A stretch of DNA of 64,000 nt from contig CAJIYR010000005.1 of the NCBI GenBank assembly GCA_905181735.1, forward strand, positions 60,434-124,433, given 5' to 3'. Shown here one piece after another: positions 15,325-25,595 of this stretch. The notes below the pieces were generated by a model. That model saw only the letters and a list, made by a program, of their open reading frames with translations. It made no database searches and had not been told where the DNA came from. This DNA is from an uncultured Hyphomicrobiales bacterium (GTDB taxonomy: Bacteria > Pseudomonadota > Alphaproteobacteria > Rhizobiales > TMED25). Positions within the stretch are counted from its first letter, which is position 1, and every line of letters begins with the position of its first letter. The translations under genes were made by a program, and so were the position numbers.

Positions 15325-17481
15325 CTAGATATCCCACCAACCGGTCTTTTTAATCGTAGGCTCTTCTTTCTTTACCTTATTCTGAATAGGCTTTGTATCT
15401 TTTGGCTCTTCTTTCTTTACCTTATTCTGAATAGGCTTTGTATTATCTTGTTTTTTTTGTACATTATTATTTGTTATTTTTTGGTCTTCTTCATTGCTGT
15501 TTGTATTTATTTTATTTTCTATTTTTTTAGCATTTGATTTATAGTTTCTTTGAGTTCTTGTTCTGTTATTTTTTGTAACATTAGTCTCGATATCGTTTGA
15601 ATTTGATAGGTTCGCTTTATTGCTCTTTATTTCTTCTGGCAACTCTACCTCGTTAACTTCAGCGTTTGAAATTATTGCAGTATTATTTGCCTTCTGGTGA
15701 TTATTTTTTCTCTTATTTCCAGGCTTAGATCTCTTTTCTGGAGTTTTTTGGAGGGCTATCTTATTATCAGTATTTCTATTAATTTCAGGTGTTTTGCTTT
15801 TGTCGTATACTGTGTCCATACTAATTGCTGAGGCATTGCTTTTAACTAAATTGTCTTTTTTAGTACCCCTTGTTAATGTAAATATTTCCTCATTTATACT
15901 ATCATCAATTTCAATATTTATTGAAATTTTATTTCTACTTTCTATTTCTACTAGAGTAGATCGTTTATTGTTAAGGGTATAAAAGCCAATCTTAGAGTTT
16001 GTTTTTATGTTGATGTTTGCGGGCCCATCGGTCAATAGGCTTTCTTCTATCGAACGTACAATTTGTAATGACGACGAGCTAACTGAATTAACTCTTCCCG
16101 AACCCTTACAATGATCACATTGTATCATAGAGGATTCGATAACGGATGATCGCATTCTCTGCCTTGACATTTCAAGCAATCCAAACTGACTTATATGACC
16201 TACTTGTATTCTAGCCCGATCAATCTTCAAGGCGTCTTTCAGCCTTCTTTCTACAGATCTGTTGTTTCTTTTTTCTTCCATGTCAATGTAATCAATAACA
16301 ACTAGCCCCGCTAGGTCTCTTAGCCTTAATTGTCTGGCTATTTCATCTGAAGACTCTAAATTTGTCCTTAATGCCGTATCTTCAATGTTATGTTCGCGAG
16401 TTGATCTTCCTGAATTGACGTCAATAGCAACAAGAGCTTCAGTTTGATTTATTACAAGATAACCTCCAGATGGTAAGGTTACATTTGGTACAAACATCTC
16501 GTGGAGTTGTTTTTCTGCTTGGTAAAATGAAAATAATGGCACTTCGCCTTCATATTTTTTTATGAATTTTATATGACTTGGAATTAACATTTTCATAAAT
16601 GACTTGGCTTCATTGTAAGCCCCATCACCGGATATAAGTATTTCATCGACATCTTTATTATAAAGATCCCGAATGGATCTTTTAATTAAACTTCCTTCTT
16701 CGTATATAATTGCTGGTGCCGTCGAGCTAAGAGTTAACTCCCTTATAGTTTCCCACAATCTTAATAAATACTCAAAGTCTCTTTTTATTTCAGTCTTCGT
16801 TCTTTGAGATCCAGCTGTTCTAACTATTACACCAGTTCCTTTTGGAATTTTTAAGCTATCAACTATTTCCCTTAGCCTGCTTCTATCTGGCATCGATGTA
16901 ATTTTTCTTGATATCCCGCCACCCCTTGCGGTGTTAGGCATTAAAACGCAATATCTTCCAGCAAGAGATAAATAAGTTGTTAAAGCTGCTCCCTTGTTAC
17001 CCCTTTCTTCTTTTGTCACTTGAATTAATATTATTTGACGCTTTTTTATGACTTCTTGGATTTTGTAACGTTTTCTTTTTGGAAAATCTCTTTTTGGTAT
17101 TTCTTCTAAAATATCATCAATACTATCTTCATCTTCGGGATCTCTTGCCTCAATTAAATCGGCATCAATTATTTCAGGATTTGGATCTTCGTTTACTAAT
17201 CCTTCCTGTGCAGCAAGTTCTTCGCGGTCAGATATTGGAATTTGATAGTAATCAGGATGAATTTCACTAAACGCTAAAAAACCGTGTCTATTTCCACCAT
17301 ACTCTACAAATGCGGCTTGTAAAGACGGCTCAACTCTAGTAACTTTTGCGAGGTAAATATTACCTCGTATTTGATTTTTTCCTTGTGTTTCTAAATCAAA
17401 TTCTTCAATTCTTCCTTCTTTAAAGACAACAACGCGAGTTTCCTCTTCGTGGCTGGCATCGATAAGCATTTTATTAGACAT
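15325..17481 (-). CDS. rne: Ribonuclease E/G
   Basis: Endoribonuclease of mRNA decay and rRNA/tRNA maturation, core of the degradosome. N-terminal S1 domain (RGNIYLAKVTRVEPSLQAAFVEYG), then the DNase I-like catalytic part with LVAIDVNSGRSTRE and GLVVIDYIDME carrying the metal-binding Asp residues, and the zinc-link CDHCKGSG. From about residue 520 the protein is a charged, low-complexity C-terminal scaffold with two copies of TKPIQNKVKKEEP, ending GWWDI as in many alphaproteobacterial RNase E. At 718 aa it is shorter than many relatives, mainly in the disordered tail. RNase E commonly autoregulates through its 5' UTR; I cannot assign such a structure here. Confidence 0.95.
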   Translation of the reverse strand: MSNKMLIDASHEEETRVVVFKEGRIEEFDLETQGKNQIRGNIYLAKVTRVEPSLQAAFVEYGGNRHGFLAFSEIHPDYYQIPISDREELAAQEGLVNEDPNPEIIDADLIEARDPEDEDSIDDILEEIPKRDFPKRKRYKIQEVIKKRQIILIQVTKEERGNKGAALTTYLSLAGRYCVLMPNTARGGGISRKITSMPDRSRLREIVDSLKIPKGTGVIVRTAGSQRTKTEIKRDFEYLLRLWETIRELTLSSTAPAIIYEEGSLIKRSIRDLYNKDVDEILISGDGAYNEAKSFMKMLIPSHIKFIKKYEGEVPLFSFYQAEKQLHEMFVPNVTLPSGGYLVINQTEALVAIDVNSGRSTREHNIEDTALRTNLESSDEIARQLRLRDLAGLVVIDYIDMEEKRNNRSVERRLKDALKIDRARIQVGHISQFGLLEMSRQRMRSSVIESSMIQCDHCKGSGRVNSVSSSSLQIVRSIEESLLTDGPANINIKTNSKIGFYTLNNKRSTLVEIESRNKISINIEIDDSINEEIFTLTRGTKKDNLVKSNASAISMDTVYDKSKTPEINRNTDNKIALQKTPEKRSKPGNKRKNNHQKANNTAIISNAEVNEVELPEEIKSNKANLSNSNDIETNVTKNNRTRTQRNYKSNAKKIENKINTNSNEEDQKITNNNVQKKQDNTKPIQNKVKKEEPKDTKPIQNKVKKEEPTIKKTGWWDI
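15359..15443. repeat. 45-bp period tandem repeat in the 3' end of rne
   Basis: About 40 bases (GGCTCTTCTTTCTTTACCTT and onward) at 15359-15398 recur at 15404-15443 with a 45-base period, encoding two near-identical 15-residue units of the disordered tail. Identical copies suggest recent in-frame duplication. Confidence 0.88.
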
Positions 17482-17959
17482 TTTTTTTCCTTATAGCAGC
17501 TATCATTCTTATTATTTGTTAATATTTTACCCAACAAATGATAAGGGAATACTGTGTATGATTTATTTTTATGATCATTGTTTATGGCAGATCTATTATC
17601 TTTTTTGAATTTTATTTGCGACAGTGCCATAGTTATTTCTTTTATTTTATTTTATTTTATTTTATTTTATTTTATTTTATTTTATTTTATTTTATTTTTA
17701 AAATGAGTAAATAGTTATTATAAACCAAACGCTACATTTAAAATAAAAACCTATTTTATATATAATGTTTATATTATCTATTTAGCAAGCAAATTATATT
17801 ATTTAAACAAATCAGCTGATTAAATAAATATTATTAATTGTAACTACGTTTATTGTGTAACAGCATCTATTTAAAATTTTTTTAAATGATTCTATTTTAG
17901 ACTGTTTGACTTATTGCTGATATTATTGATTTATATACATTACATTAAGAGTCTAAATT
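17482..17959. other. Divergent intergenic region rne / mrcA
   Basis: About 478 bases holding the rne leader and promoter on one side and the mrcA promoter on the other, with the TTTTA microsatellite in between. The 79-codon minus ORF (17391-17630) reads into rne in another frame and looks spurious. No amidase gene is present here, although relatives often carry one between rne and mrcA. Confidence 0.55.
17641..17699. repeat. TTTTA pentanucleotide microsatellite
   Basis: About twelve uninterrupted copies of a 5-base unit (TTTAT/TTTTA), about 160 bases upstream of the rne start and 260 bases upstream of mrcA. Perfect pentanucleotide arrays of this length are uncommon in bacterial genomes and are prone to slippage. 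Confidence 0.95.
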
Positions 17960-20284
17960 ATGAATTCTAATATTTTTGGTTTTATATTTGCTACTTTGAG
18001 TTACGTTTTGTTAACACTGATTGCTTTAATATTTGTAGCTGTATTAATCATCTCTAGAGATCTTCCGGATTATAATAATTTTTCAAGCTATCAATCTCCA
18101 TCTATTACAAGGATATATACATCTGATGGTTATATTCTTGATGATTCTGTTGTAAAAAATAGGATATTTATTGAAATAGAGCATATTCCCGAGCTTATCA
18201 TAAATGCTTTTATCTCAGCCGAAGATAAAGATTTTTTTACGCATACGGGTATTGATTATAAGAGCTTGTTGAGTGCTATATATACTAATATAAAAAATAT
18301 AATAATACGAAATGATAGGTTAATTGGGGCATCTACGATAACCCAACAGGTAGCAAAAAACTTTTTTTTAAACAACGACCGTACTATTATTAGAAAATTT
18401 AGAGAATTTGTAATCGCCTATCAAATAGAGCAAAATTTATCAAAAAGAGAAATATTAGAACTATATTTGAATGAAATCTATTTTGGTATGGGATCTTATG
18501 GCATCGCAAGTGCTTCGATAAATTATTTTGATAAATCTTTGGATGAACTGAATCTTGAAGAAGTTGCATATCTAGCAGCTTTGCCTAAAGCTCCTAATAA
18601 TTATAACCCCATAGATAATAAAGAAAAAGCTATAATTAGACGTAATTGGGTTATCGATAGAATGTTTGATAACGGCTATATCTTAGAAACAGAAGCTAGT
18701 GAATTAAAAAATTTTCCATTAATAGTTAATGTAAACTCTGATAAAATTGAAAAATATAATGCAAATTATTTTTTAGATGAAGCGAAGCGGTCTCTAGTTA
18801 AAATTTTTGATAAAGAAATTCAATACAAAGACGGATTAACCATTAAGACGTCACTAGATTCTAATATACATAAAAAATCCGAAGTTTCCTTTAAGAGCAC
18901 GCTAATAAAATTTGATAGATCAATGGGGTGGTCTGGTCCTGTATTAAAAATTAATACCAACAAAATTGATTCTATAAATAGTTTCAATAATTTAATGTTA
19001 AAACCTATTGGTAGAGATTCTTTTCTTGCAATGGTTCAAGATATTGAGGGTGAAAAAATTACATTTATACTTCATAAAAATTATACTCAATATCCAGATA
19101 ATAATAAAATAATCTCAATACCAAAAGTAGACCTTGCCTGGATAAAAAAATCAAATAATAAAAACCTTCTTAAAAAGAAATATTTATCATTGGGTGATGT
19201 GGTTTATCTATCAAATTTTAATGATAATATCGGTTGGAATATATATCAAGTTCCTGAATTACAAGGATCTATGGTTGTTATGGATCCGAATACAGGTAGA
19301 GTTTTATCAATGATAGGTGGTTATGATTATAATTTGAATAAATCCAATGATGCTACAAAAGCATATAAAAAAATAGGATCAATGTTACAGCCATTCATAT
19401 ATCTCAACGCTTTAGAGCAGGGATATAAACCTAACTCTCTGATTCTAGATGCTCCTTTAGTAAAAAAATCAAATGATTTAGATAAGATTGTATATAAAAA
19501 TTATAATAATATATATAACGGTCCATCTACACTTAGATATGGCCTTGAATCCTCAAGCAATGTAATGGCAATAAGATTGCTGGAAAAGTTAGAGTACCAG
19601 ACTATATATAACAGTCTTATTAATTTTGGTGTTACAGAAGAATTGTCACTTACCTTCCCATTAGAATCAATTGAAACAACGCTTTTAAAGTTAACCAACG
19701 CTTTTTCGTCATTTGCAAATGGAGGAAAATTAGTAACGCCTTCATATATCGATAAAATACAAAATAAATACGGTAAAACTATTTACAAAGCCGATAAGTC
19801 TGATTGCCTTGGTTGTGTATTGAGTTTTCCCAGTAATCAGGATGTCCCTTTTGTTGTTGATAATAGAACTACTTTAATTGAAGAAGCAAGAGCTTACCAG
19901 ATAACGTCAATTTTGGAAGGCGCTTTAAAATTTAACGCTAATGAGAATATTGATTTATCAAAAAGTCTTTCAGTTGCAGGAAAAGGCGGTATGTCCAATA
20001 AATTCTCAGAATCGTGGTTTGTTGGCTATACGCCAGATATTATTGTTGGAATTTATCTTGATCACAATCACCTTAGTAAGGCTATTAACGGTTTTAATGA
20101 AAATAATAAAAAAAAATTAACAAAGTTAATATTTGAAGAATTTATTCAAAGTTATTTGGATGAAAATTTAATAAAAAAATTTTATATTCCCGATGGTATA
20201 GATTTAATTGAAACAAATAGAAAAACAGGTAAGCGATTTAATTTGATATCTGGGCAAACAATTTTAGAAGCTTTTGTAAAATAA
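17960..20284 (+). CDS. mrcA: Class A penicillin-binding protein 1A homologue with degenerate transpeptidase site
   Basis: Peptidoglycan synthase of the PBP1A family, 774 aa, anchored by an N-terminal membrane helix (about 6-30). The glycosyltransferase GT51 domain (about 50-240) is intact: AEDKDFFTHTGID with the catalytic Glu, GASTITQQVAKN, and REILELYLNEIYFG with the second Glu. In the transpeptidase domain (about 420-720) the motifs are altered. SxxK is S474-MLQ (Lys replaced by Gln477), SxN is kept as SSN at 532-534, and KTG reads KGG at 675-677. The surrounding fold (GPSTLRYGLES, ESWFVGYTPDIIVGIYLD) is well conserved, so this is not a decayed gene. Inference: glycosyltransferase-active, transpeptidase-impaired. 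prfB follows on the same strand, the usual neighbour. Confidence 0.9.
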   Translation: MNSNIFGFIFATLSYVLLTLIALIFVAVLIISRDLPDYNNFSSYQSPSITRIYTSDGYILDDSVVKNRIFIEIEHIPELIINAFISAEDKDFFTHTGIDYKSLLSAIYTNIKNIIIRNDRLIGASTITQQVAKNFFLNNDRTIIRKFREFVIAYQIEQNLSKREILELYLNEIYFGMGSYGIASASINYFDKSLDELNLEEVAYLAALPKAPNNYNPIDNKEKAIIRRNWVIDRMFDNGYILETEASELKNFPLIVNVNSDKIEKYNANYFLDEAKRSLVKIFDKEIQYKDGLTIKTSLDSNIHKKSEVSFKSTLIKFDRSMGWSGPVLKINTNKIDSINSFNNLMLKPIGRDSFLAMVQDIEGEKITFILHKNYTQYPDNNKIISIPKVDLAWIKKSNNKNLLKKKYLSLGDVVYLSNFNDNIGWNIYQVPELQGSMVVMDPNTGRVLSMIGGYDYNLNKSNDATKAYKKIGSMLQPFIYLNALEQGYKPNSLILDAPLVKKSNDLDKIVYKNYNNIYNGPSTLRYGLESSSNVMAIRLLEKLEYQTIYNSLINFGVTEELSLTFPLESIETTLLKLTNAFSSFANGGKLVTPSYIDKIQNKYGKTIYKADKSDCLGCVLSFPSNQDVPFVVDNRTTLIEEARAYQITSILEGALKFNANENIDLSKSLSVAGKGGMSNKFSESWFVGYTPDIIVGIYLDHNHLSKAINGFNENNKKKLTKLIFEEFIQSYLDENLIKKFYIPDGIDLIETNRKTGKRFNLISGQTILEAFVK

Positions 20285-22163: not shown

Positions 22164-25100
22164 ATGAAATTTTTTTTAAATAATATAAAATATAAAAATA
22201 TACTCCTATCTTTGCTAGGAGTTCTATTGTTTCTCGCTCTAGTTGCGCTTCTAGCAAATACTTTTTTAAATAGGAAGCTAGATAAATCTAATATCTCTCT
22301 CAATAATTTCAGTGCATCTATTGGTGAGATAATATCAAATAATTTCAATGGATTAGATGTTGATATTGATAGCATTGAATTAACAAAGCTAAAAGATAAT
22401 AAGATTTATTTATCTATAAAAAACATCTCAATTAAAGATCAATTTGGAAGAGAAATTATAAATTCTCCAATTGCTTATATTGAAAACGGTTTAACATCAT
22501 ACTTGTTGGGATCTCTGTCTAAATTGTATTTAGAACAAATAACTCAAAGAAGTATAATTTTGATAAGACCTAATATATCGTTTTTTCAAGAGGAAAATGG
22601 GAAATTTGATATTTTAAAGAATGCAAAAAATGATGATGAAGATGTTTCTATAGATCAAAATACTAACTTTATTAATTCTTTTGAAGAAAATGCGAATTAT
22701 CATTTTTATCAGCCGTATTTACAACAATTGTATAGCTTAGTTTCTTCGAGTGAAAATTCCTTTTACAACAAATATCTAAAATCTATAAAAGCATTAGATA
22801 TAAGAGATGCTTCGATAGTTGTTATAGACAACAATCATGAGGAGATATTTAGAATAGATAACGCCGCTTTAAATTTTAACAAGAAAGATTCTGCGGTTTC
22901 AATTAATTTAAATATTAAGACTGAATTTACGAAAAATGATGATTGGTATGCTAATATTAACCTTTTAAATAATATTGATTTAAATCATGTGAATGTAGAT
23001 TTAACTTTTAAAAACATATCAAATAAAACTAAAGAATTTAATTACCTAAATTTTTTAAATTCTATTCAGGTACCTTTATCTGGTAGGGTAAATTTTGATA
23101 TAACGGAACTTGGAATGATTGGTTCCCTTAGATCTGATATTAATATTGGTTCTGGTGACCAACTTCTTGATAGCTCAAAACTTAAAGATTATAAATTTAA
23201 TGTAATTGATAAAATTTTTATAAAAGATGGTTACTTAAGTTTTGAGTACAATAGTAGCTCTAGTGAAATAAAAATAAGCGAGATAAGTATTGATTATGAT
23301 AAATTTATTATTAACGGGGCGGGTCAGTTAACTTTAGATTTTAATAGAAAAGGTTCGCTGGTAGCTTTAAATTTCTTACTTGATCGATTGCAAGTTGAGG
23401 ATAGTGAATTTGAAGAAATTAACTCGATTTTATTGTCTGAGGGAATCCTAAAAGGAAAAGTAAACTTTCAACCACTAATAGTAAATATCGAATCATTTGA
23501 TTCGTCTTTCTTTGACGGCTTGGTGTCATTAAGCGCTGACTATTACCATGAAAAAAAAGAGAAGTTAAGCCTATTTCTTGACATTAAAGACGGGGATATA
23601 TCTGATATCTATGATTTATGGCCAAAAAATTACAATAAAGAAGCTAGAAAATGGTTTATGCATAATGTGAAAAATGCCACTATAGTTAGTAGTAAACTAA
23701 GCTTAATTTCCAAAGATATGCAAGAATTTAATGTAGGATTAGAGCTCGATTTTATTGGTGCAAATATATCGTATTACAAAGATTTACCTAATTTATCCAA
23801 TTCATCTGGTAGATTGTCAATTAAAGAATCTCAACTTAATTTATCAATTAATAACGCTGATATTAAGATGTATGAAGGAGGTATCTTAAAAATAGAAGAC
23901 AGTAAATTTAATATCCTCAACCTATTTAAAGAAAAGGTAGGTAACTTTGATTTGAATATACATGGAGAGATTAAGGATTCGATCAATTATCTATCAAAAT
24001 TAGGGTTTGGTGCAGATAAATTTACCCCCTTAGTTGGAGATAATGTTAATGGTAAGTCTATGATAAGGGCTCAATTTGAAATACCTTTTGCTACAAGAGA
24101 ATCCTATGACGATATCAATATAAATGCAAAAATCAATATAAGGGATCTTATGGTGAAGGTTCCTGACAATGCACCTTTACCATTTTCTGTAGACTCCATT
24201 TCATCTCCAGACCTTGAAATAGAAATAAATAATAACAATCTATCTATGTCTTCTGATGCTTTTGTCAACGGAGTTTTAGCTAAAGTTGATGTTAATTTCA
24301 ATATTTATAATAATGATGGTCAAGGTAATTTTCTAATATATGCGGAATTAAGTCCAACAGATTTAGAAACATTTGGCATTAACACGGAGCCTTATCATTC
24401 TGGGTTTGGTCGTGCTCCTGTATGGTTACAAATAATAACAAAAGGTAATTCTTTAGAAGAAATAAAAATTACTTCAGATTTGTCTATGTTTGAACTTAGG
24501 TTCCCTGGCATAGATTGGGTTAAACATCCTGGAGATACAGCCAATCTAGAAGTCACATATGGTAAAGAAAGTTTTATTAACAATGAAAAAAAAGCCAGGA
24601 TTAGGTTCGCTACAGACAAAGAATCTATAGAGGCTTTTGTAAAACATGATATTAGTAAAATTAAAGAATTTAATATTCTTAATTTTGATAACAAAAATTT
24701 TAAGAATATTCAAGTAATTGGAAATTTTGATAGTGAAAGAATTTTATCTCTTGATGTGTCAGGGAAAAGTTTTGATCTAAGTTCTATAATTGACAAAACT
24801 CTCTTCAGTACTTCGGTCAGTAAATCAATTACAAGTTCACCCATCATTAATATAAATATAATTAACGTAGAAAATATAGTAGGAAAAAGATCAAGCGTAC
24901 AAAATGTAACAGGAAATATTATCTTGCAGAACGGAAAATTATTCCAAACAGATCTTAGTGGATATTTTAATGAAGATGATAAAATAGACTTTATATATAC
25001 CGATCAAGATGATGTTTTCCCTATTGATCTTGGTATAAATACAAATAATGCTGGAGAATTCTTTAAATTTATTGGCGTTTACACAAAGGCTTTATCTGGC

Positions 25101-25595
25101 AGCATGCAACTTCGCGCACAAGGTCCGGCAATAAACAATTTGACTGGAAAGCTTTTTATAAATGATTTTAACATCTCAGGAGACACTACGCTTTTATCGC
25201 TTTTTGCTGCCTCTGGACCAAGCCCAGAATTGTCATCTATAGAACAGGTTGGCTTTAAAAAATTAGATATTGATTTTTCTCTTACTAACGGATCAATTTT
25301 TGTTGATCAATCCTTGTTAGACGGCCCTAATGTTAGAATGTCTTTCAGTGGTCCGGTTAATCAGGAAACTGGTTTTTTCAAAATATCTGGTAACTATTGC
25401 CCTGCTTATGAAGTAAACGCATCCTTTGGTACAATTCCATTATTTGGACCTCTATTATCAGGGGGGGATGATCAGTGTTTATTCGCCGTACCATTTGTTA
25501 TTATGAGGGATAAATATGGCGAAGGGACTCTTGTAAAGCATAACGCTGCTGGTTTATTAGCACCGGGTGTTTTCCGTCAATTTTTCGCTTATTGA
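22164..25595 (+). CDS. Large AsmA-like/YhdP-type (DUF3971) envelope protein
   Basis: A 1143-residue protein with one N-terminal membrane helix (about 14-34, LLSLLGVLLFLALVALLANTF) and a long beta-rich periplasmic part typical of bridge-like lipid transfer proteins of the AsmA/YhdP group. Family-like stretches are LWPKNYNKEARKWFMHNV (DUF3971 region, about 490), the repeated beta segments, and a C-terminal AsmA-like block with KLFINDFNISGDTTLLSLFAASG and FGTIPLFGPLLSGG. Likely role (inference from family): phospholipid transport to the outer membrane. Together with mlaD it suggests envelope lipid traffic is well served. Its stop overlaps the convergent tyrS stop by 7 bases. Confidence 0.82.
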   Translation: MKFFLNNIKYKNILLSLLGVLLFLALVALLANTFLNRKLDKSNISLNNFSASIGEIISNNFNGLDVDIDSIELTKLKDNKIYLSIKNISIKDQFGREIINSPIAYIENGLTSYLLGSLSKLYLEQITQRSIILIRPNISFFQEENGKFDILKNAKNDDEDVSIDQNTNFINSFEENANYHFYQPYLQQLYSLVSSSENSFYNKYLKSIKALDIRDASIVVIDNNHEEIFRIDNAALNFNKKDSAVSINLNIKTEFTKNDDWYANINLLNNIDLNHVNVDLTFKNISNKTKEFNYLNFLNSIQVPLSGRVNFDITELGMIGSLRSDINIGSGDQLLDSSKLKDYKFNVIDKIFIKDGYLSFEYNSSSSEIKISEISIDYDKFIINGAGQLTLDFNRKGSLVALNFLLDRLQVEDSEFEEINSILLSEGILKGKVNFQPLIVNIESFDSSFFDGLVSLSADYYHEKKEKLSLFLDIKDGDISDIYDLWPKNYNKEARKWFMHNVKNATIVSSKLSLISKDMQEFNVGLELDFIGANISYYKDLPNLSNSSGRLSIKESQLNLSINNADIKMYEGGILKIEDSKFNILNLFKEKVGNFDLNIHGEIKDSINYLSKLGFGADKFTPLVGDNVNGKSMIRAQFEIPFATRESYDDININAKINIRDLMVKVPDNAPLPFSVDSISSPDLEIEINNNNLSMSSDAFVNGVLAKVDVNFNIYNNDGQGNFLIYAELSPTDLETFGINTEPYHSGFGRAPVWLQIITKGNSLEEIKITSDLSMFELRFPGIDWVKHPGDTANLEVTYGKESFINNEKKARIRFATDKESIEAFVKHDISKIKEFNILNFDNKNFKNIQVIGNFDSERILSLDVSGKSFDLSSIIDKTLFSTSVSKSITSSPIININIINVENIVGKRSSVQNVTGNIILQNGKLFQTDLSGYFNEDDKIDFIYTDQDDVFPIDLGINTNNAGEFFKFIGVYTKALSGSMQLRAQGPAINNLTGKLFINDFNISGDTTLLSLFAASGPSPELSSIEQVGFKKLDIDFSLTNGSIFVDQSLLDGPNVRMSFSGPVNQETGFFKISGNYCPAYEVNASFGTIPLFGPLLSGGDDQCLFAVPFVIMRDKYGEGTLVKHNAAGLLAPGVFRQFFAY

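Follow-up and report, generated by a model that had tools for sequence, protein, structure and literature searches.

A PBP1A-type class A penicillin-binding protein with a degenerate transpeptidase domain, probably a glycosyltransferase-only enzyme, in a family of alphaproteobacteria

Class A penicillin-binding proteins (PBPs) normally couple the polymerisation and the cross-linking of peptidoglycan in one enzyme. In the transpeptidase (TP) domain the lysine of the SxxK box is the general base for acylation, and its loss should abolish both DD-transpeptidation and acylation by penicillin, while the glycosyltransferase (GT51) domain is able to work without it. LD-transpeptidases of the YcbB type are of the cross-linking kind. 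In E. coli, PBP1b carrying the S510A mutation still polymerises and, when the DD-transpeptidases are blocked, the glycosyltransferase of PBP1b together with DacA and YcbB suffices for wall growth (PMC5089857). In Agrobacterium, without RodA and PBP2, polar elongation is driven by PBP1a (PMC8546619), and LD-transpeptidation appears to be essential in this organism (PMC11527210). The case of C. difficile PBP1, whose TP activity is needed for growth and not for division (PMC12539705), calls for caution, as it shows that TP loss carries a cost. In the open-access literature that we searched, we found no description of a natural class A PBP working as a glycosyltransferase only.

The window (the whole stretch of DNA analysed here, 64,000 nucleotides) encodes a 774-aa class A PBP of the PBP1A type. 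Its features, and its two conserved neighbours, are as follows.

15325..17481, minus strand: rne (RNase E/G type), divergent neighbour; synteny in the congener and the sister genus
17960..20284, plus strand: class A PBP (PBP1A type), 774 aa, TP predicted from sequence to be catalytically dead; ORF, Pfam and motifs
18152..18664, plus strand: GT51 domain, residues 65-235, catalytic motifs intact; PF00912 Transgly, E 1.9e-60
18929..19258, plus strand: OB-like domain, residues 324-433; weak Pfam match (8.5e-5), below cut-off
19265..20089, plus strand: degenerate transpeptidase domain, residues 436-710; PF00905 Transpeptidase, E 4.4e-23
19379..19390, plus strand: SxxK box, present as SMLQ (S474-Q477), acyl serine retained and lysine gone; motif and codons
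19556..19564, plus strand: SxN box, retained as SSN (S533-S534-N535); motif alignment
19982..19990, plus strand: KTG box, present as KGG (K675-G676-G677); motif and codons
20549..21487, plus strand: prfB (release factor 2), conserved downstream neighbour; ORF and synteny

The initial annotation had claimed that SxxK was changed to SMLQ and KTG to KGG, and both changes can be read in the codons: GGA TCA ATG TTA CAG (S474-M-L-Q477 after a glycine) and GGA AAA GGC GGT (K675-G676-G677, also after a glycine). The interval 19379-19990 spans codons 474-677 of the ORF exactly. The initial annotation's description of the GT site as intact also holds, with the signatures SAEDKDFFTHTG, GASTITQQ and EILELYLNEIYFG all present. 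Having both GT51 and PF00905 domains and lacking the full SxxK/SxN/KTG set, the protein reads as a class A PBP by descent that is not bifunctional. Against TIGR02074 (PBP_1a_fam) it reaches 480 bits, slightly short of the cut-off of 508.75, and against the monofunctional glycosyltransferase model TIGR02070 it reaches 135.8 bits, below the cut-off of 182.65. An AlphaFold2 model (mean pLDDT 83, pTM 0.73, 40-row alignment) predicts a helix that begins at residue 473 and strands in the region of residues 673-701, like those of active PBPs. The PDB entries that match this fold best are PBP1A structures; the input alignment was made of active relatives, and the preservation of the fold may be overstated.

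Comparison with close relatives, which the initial annotation had proposed as a check, revealed no normal motifs. In a congener (G001, locus L004; 73% identical) the SxxK position reads SIIQ and the KTG position KRG, and Ser474, S533/N535 and K675 are retained in both congeners. The loss is further advanced in the sister genus. Its PBP1A proteins, read at 10 loci in different genomes, measure 609-656 aa; their GT domain is intact and their TP half has shrunk. At the SxxK position these have SILR, SILK, NILK or DLLR, and SxN and KTG are gone, also in the two proteins (L007 and L013) that still carry S-I-L-K. A PF00905 match was absent in all five sister-genus proteins scanned, even at E 0.1. 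Since their C-terminal part aligns to residues 437-774 of a profile led by the window protein (hhalign 96.4%, E 1.2e-9, 18% identity), it is an eroded TP and not a replacement domain. Decay is visible in stages, the catalytic residues being lost with the domain kept and the domain being eroded afterwards. TP loss runs through the whole family, whose members have small genomes, a larger extent than was first stated, and judging from the motifs it is near certain that TP function has been lost in the family PBP1A. The window protein resembles bifunctional PBP1A (TIGR02074; Agrobacterium PBP1a) in its TM-GT51-OB-TP order, GT motifs, rne/prfB synteny and predicted fold, but it lacks the SxxK lysine and the KTG threonine and, in the sister genus, the TP is progressively eroded.

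SxxK, SxN and KTG are present in every one of the 108 other PBP1A relatives examined from the Alphaproteobacteria, streamlined SAR11 included; 80 of these are named loci and 28 came from a search of the assigned order. None of these relatives has lost SxxK or KTG. Streamlining as a sufficient cause of TP loss was rejected, since the TP boxes are retained in SAR11, in Bartonella and in an order-mate with a 1.4-Mb genome (L140). The only intact class A PBP found in the family, an 816-aa protein, 33% identical, with SSFK and KTG (G004:C1, L015:182-2629), is probably foreign: its contig measures 15 kb, and the genome, which is 7% contaminated, has the usual degenerate copy on another contig (C8 of G004).

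The two halves of the protein have changed very differently. The window PBP1A keeps 46 of 48 near-invariant GT columns, while near-invariant TP columns are kept at 40 of 66 positions in this protein, 45 of 66 in the congener and 9-16 of 66 in the sister genus. The contrast in changed columns (TP 26/66 versus GT 2/48) gives a Fisher p of 7e-6 for the window protein, and the same comparison in the congener gives 2.5e-4. In a leave-one-out analysis the worst reference retains 94% of the TP columns, and nine SAR11 proteins retain 65-66 of the 66. The congener pair is 83% identical in GT and 71% in TP; across 58 reference pairs with like GT identity, TP identity is 82 ± 6%, with a minimum of 72%. 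Values of dN/dS (NG86) are 0.084 for GT and 0.206 for TP within the genus, while within the sister genus the GT ranges over 0.07-0.16 and the remainder of the protein over 0.23-0.39, each single value being rough because dS is near 1. From these contrasts in column retention, identity and dN/dS we conclude that the GT is under strong purifying selection and that the TP is relaxed yet still selected, not neutral. A TP dN/dS well below 1 reflects some remaining constraint on this domain.

The genome to which the window belongs (1.39 Mb, 97.7% complete) was searched for other PBPs and LD-transpeptidases, as the initial annotation had advised. The search returned one other TP domain, two YkuD-type genes and no second GT51, and the presence of a second, normal class A PBP was consequently rejected. 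The other TP domain is that of a class B PBP with STFK, SSN and KTG, read as FtsI, and the sole SEDS gene, ~6 kb away from it, is read as FtsW. One match each for GT51, SEDS and Peptidase_S11 was obtained in 7 of 7 well-completed family genomes (completeness of 90% or more, contamination of 5% or less), and all seven also gave matches for FtsI and for a YkuD protein some 430-480 aa long. The DacA-like carboxypeptidase (PF00768, Peptidase_S11) has PASLTK and KTG in those read. The large YkuD protein of the window's genome (L117) combines YkuD and PG_binding_1 domains with an HDTP...SSGCVR catalytic region, and its closest PDB structure is YcbB (7aj9, E 1.9e-50). LD-transpeptidase genes number two, both of YkuD type, in the window's genus and one in the sister genus. 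Most genomes across the wider order carry some 6-24 YkuD genes, the lowest counts outside the family being 4 and 2. The second, small YkuD protein, found in the window's genus only (L126:1339-1935 and L125:858-1493; frames of 199-212 aa, HINN...SLGCI), had no PDB or NCBIfam match. By sequence, then, the family appears to hold a GT-competent PBP without TP, a DacA-type carboxypeptidase and a YcbB-type enzyme with its catalytic Cys and His.

RodA and PBP2 are absent from the family according to SEDS and TP-domain profile searches. The MreB model did match in 14 of 14 genomes, but weakly and in frames of ~635 and ~436 aa, the size of DnaK and FtsA, and we take these matches to be DnaK/FtsA-like proteins and not MreB. 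MreB, RodA and PBP2 are thus all missing, as in Rhizobiales-type polar growth, and this absence, together with the assigned order, suggests that the family may grow from the pole. In a tree of GT and prfB the genus, which is AT-rich and drew a composition warning, sits on a long branch outside the Hyphomicrobiales, and its assigned order-mates fall inside.

We propose that PBP1A is a functional peptidoglycan glycosyltransferase that would turn lipid II into uncross-linked glycan, with a TP domain devoid of acylation chemistry surviving as a structural or regulatory appendage. Because it is the sole GT51 enzyme and RodA, PBP2 and MreB are lacking, it probably acts as the polymerase of elongation, the role that PBP1a has in polar-growing Rhizobiales. 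The DacA-like carboxypeptidase would trim to tetrapeptides, from which the single YcbB-type LD-transpeptidase most likely makes 3-3 links in trans, and DD-transpeptidation would be left to FtsW-FtsI alone and serve the septum. Retention of the E. coli set and the Agrobacterium precedents argue for such a polymerase in elongation, its glycan being cross-linked in trans by an LD-transpeptidase, and it is the same inventory and precedent that point to a partnership between PBP1A and the LD-transpeptidase. We consider it reasonably probable that PBP1A acts as a glycosyltransferase only, that its glycan is mainly cross-linked by the LD-transpeptidase and that FtsI serves the septum. The idea of a glycosyltransferase-only synthase, with cross-links supplied by other PBPs or LD-transpeptidases, was already in the initial annotation and gains support from the family-wide loss and the gene inventory. 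A stronger form, in which the elongation glycan is wholly cross-linked by one YcbB-type enzyme and the cell depends on FtsI alone, at the septum, as a natural counterpart of the E. coli bypass, is one that we entertain but are slightly inclined to doubt.

The polymerase could also be glycosyltransferase-only with FtsI, perhaps as a shared partner, doing the cross-linking, and with the LD-transpeptidase only remodelling or tethering outer-membrane proteins. Such a division of labour fits poorly with an FtsI that has its own SEDS partner, FtsW, ~6 kb away, and with the family-wide retention of a YcbB-type LD-transpeptidase, the cross-linking kind, where order relatives mostly have 6-24 YkuD genes. 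It is favoured by FtsI being the sole intact DD-transpeptidase, conserved in all family genomes where it was found, and by the tethering roles of LD-transpeptidases in Agrobacterium (PMC11527210), and we hold it to be unlikely, if far from negligible. Retention of Ser474, S533/N535 and K675 in both congeners might speak for residual or altered acyl transfer by the TP through Ser474, the SxN box and Lys675. However, the general-base lysine and the KTG threonine are replaced, 21-26 of the 66 near-invariant TP columns are changed and both the SxN and KTG boxes are wholly lost in the sister genus, which makes this chemistry very unlikely.

Neutral decay to a pseudogene under genome reduction, with the GT included, would agree with the small genome (1.39 Mb) and with the relaxed evolution of the TP, but it is extremely unlikely in view of the 46 of 48 near-invariant GT columns, the GT dN/dS of ~0.08, the open frames in every genome with a match and the TP boxes kept by SAR11, Bartonella and L140. 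A sequencing or assembly artefact has in its favour that the window comes from a draft genome, and nothing more; an independent congener assembly carries a different variant (SIIQ/KRG), the sister genus goes beyond it, and we regard this explanation as refuted to the point of deserving practically no credit. The initial annotation had said that a sequencing error or recent pseudogene would overturn its claim. Both were rejected on the strength of the congener with the same loss and of dN/dS, the frame being open and under purifying selection.

Our preferred reading, a glycosyltransferase-only PBP1A served mainly by an LD-transpeptidase, resembles the E. coli YcbB bypass (PMC5089857) in that the same three activities are retained, including a YcbB-type LD-transpeptidase. 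The bypass was, however, selected in the laboratory and needs raised (p)ppGpp (PMC5089857), whereas here the set has become fixed in an entire family, which additionally retains FtsI and has a GT partner of PBP1A type, not PBP1b. Like MtgA/MGT (TIGR02070), the family PBP1A would be expected from its sequence to carry out lipid II polymerisation only, but it is far longer, descends from class A PBPs and still has a TP remnant attached. Bacteria without aPBPs (PMC8406291) likewise have a reduced wall machinery that contains a single bPBP/SEDS set; they lose the whole aPBP, whereas this family keeps the GT half and loses the TP half only. By uncoupling polymerisation from cross-linking in its only class A enzyme, the family offers a test case for two questions: whether LD-transpeptidases can, in nature, be the chief cross-linking enzymes of a Gram-negative wall during elongation, and of what use a dead TP domain still is to its GT domain. 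Unusual beta-lactam behaviour can also be predicted: covalent binding by the window PBP1A is not expected, and FtsI would be the only high-molecular-weight target.

Out of 387 genomes of Alphaproteobacteria with a completeness of 90% or more, only 17 others have at most two PF00905 matches; 8 of these are wholly without GT51, and in the remaining 9 the SxxK, SxN and K[TS]G boxes of the class A PBPs are intact. A convergent TP-dead class A PBP was thus not found in these 17, in a survey that covers low-TP genomes and that a GT-only class A PBP among several PBPs would escape. Another family of small-genome alphaproteobacteria (f91: G291, G396, G543, G476 and G604), which has 1-2 TP domains and lacks GT51 entirely, is a case of complete aPBP loss.

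Some further observations concern the neighbourhood of the gene. Just 3' of the PBP1A-prfB block, positions 22164-25595 encode a 1143-aa protein that is AsmA/YhdP-like by eye only and that gave no match in a Pfam scan. The interval 17482-17959 is without the AmiC-type amidase gene (Amidase_3 and AMIN) that is present between rne and PBP1A in relatives such as L018 and L065, and a SAR11 locus (L067) is likewise without a separate amidase-size ORF at this place. The divergent rne/PBP1A intergenic region contains a tandem array of TTTAT x 12.6 at 17636-17698, not found as a pentamer array in the congener or sister-genus loci checked, which could be a slippage-variable promoter element.
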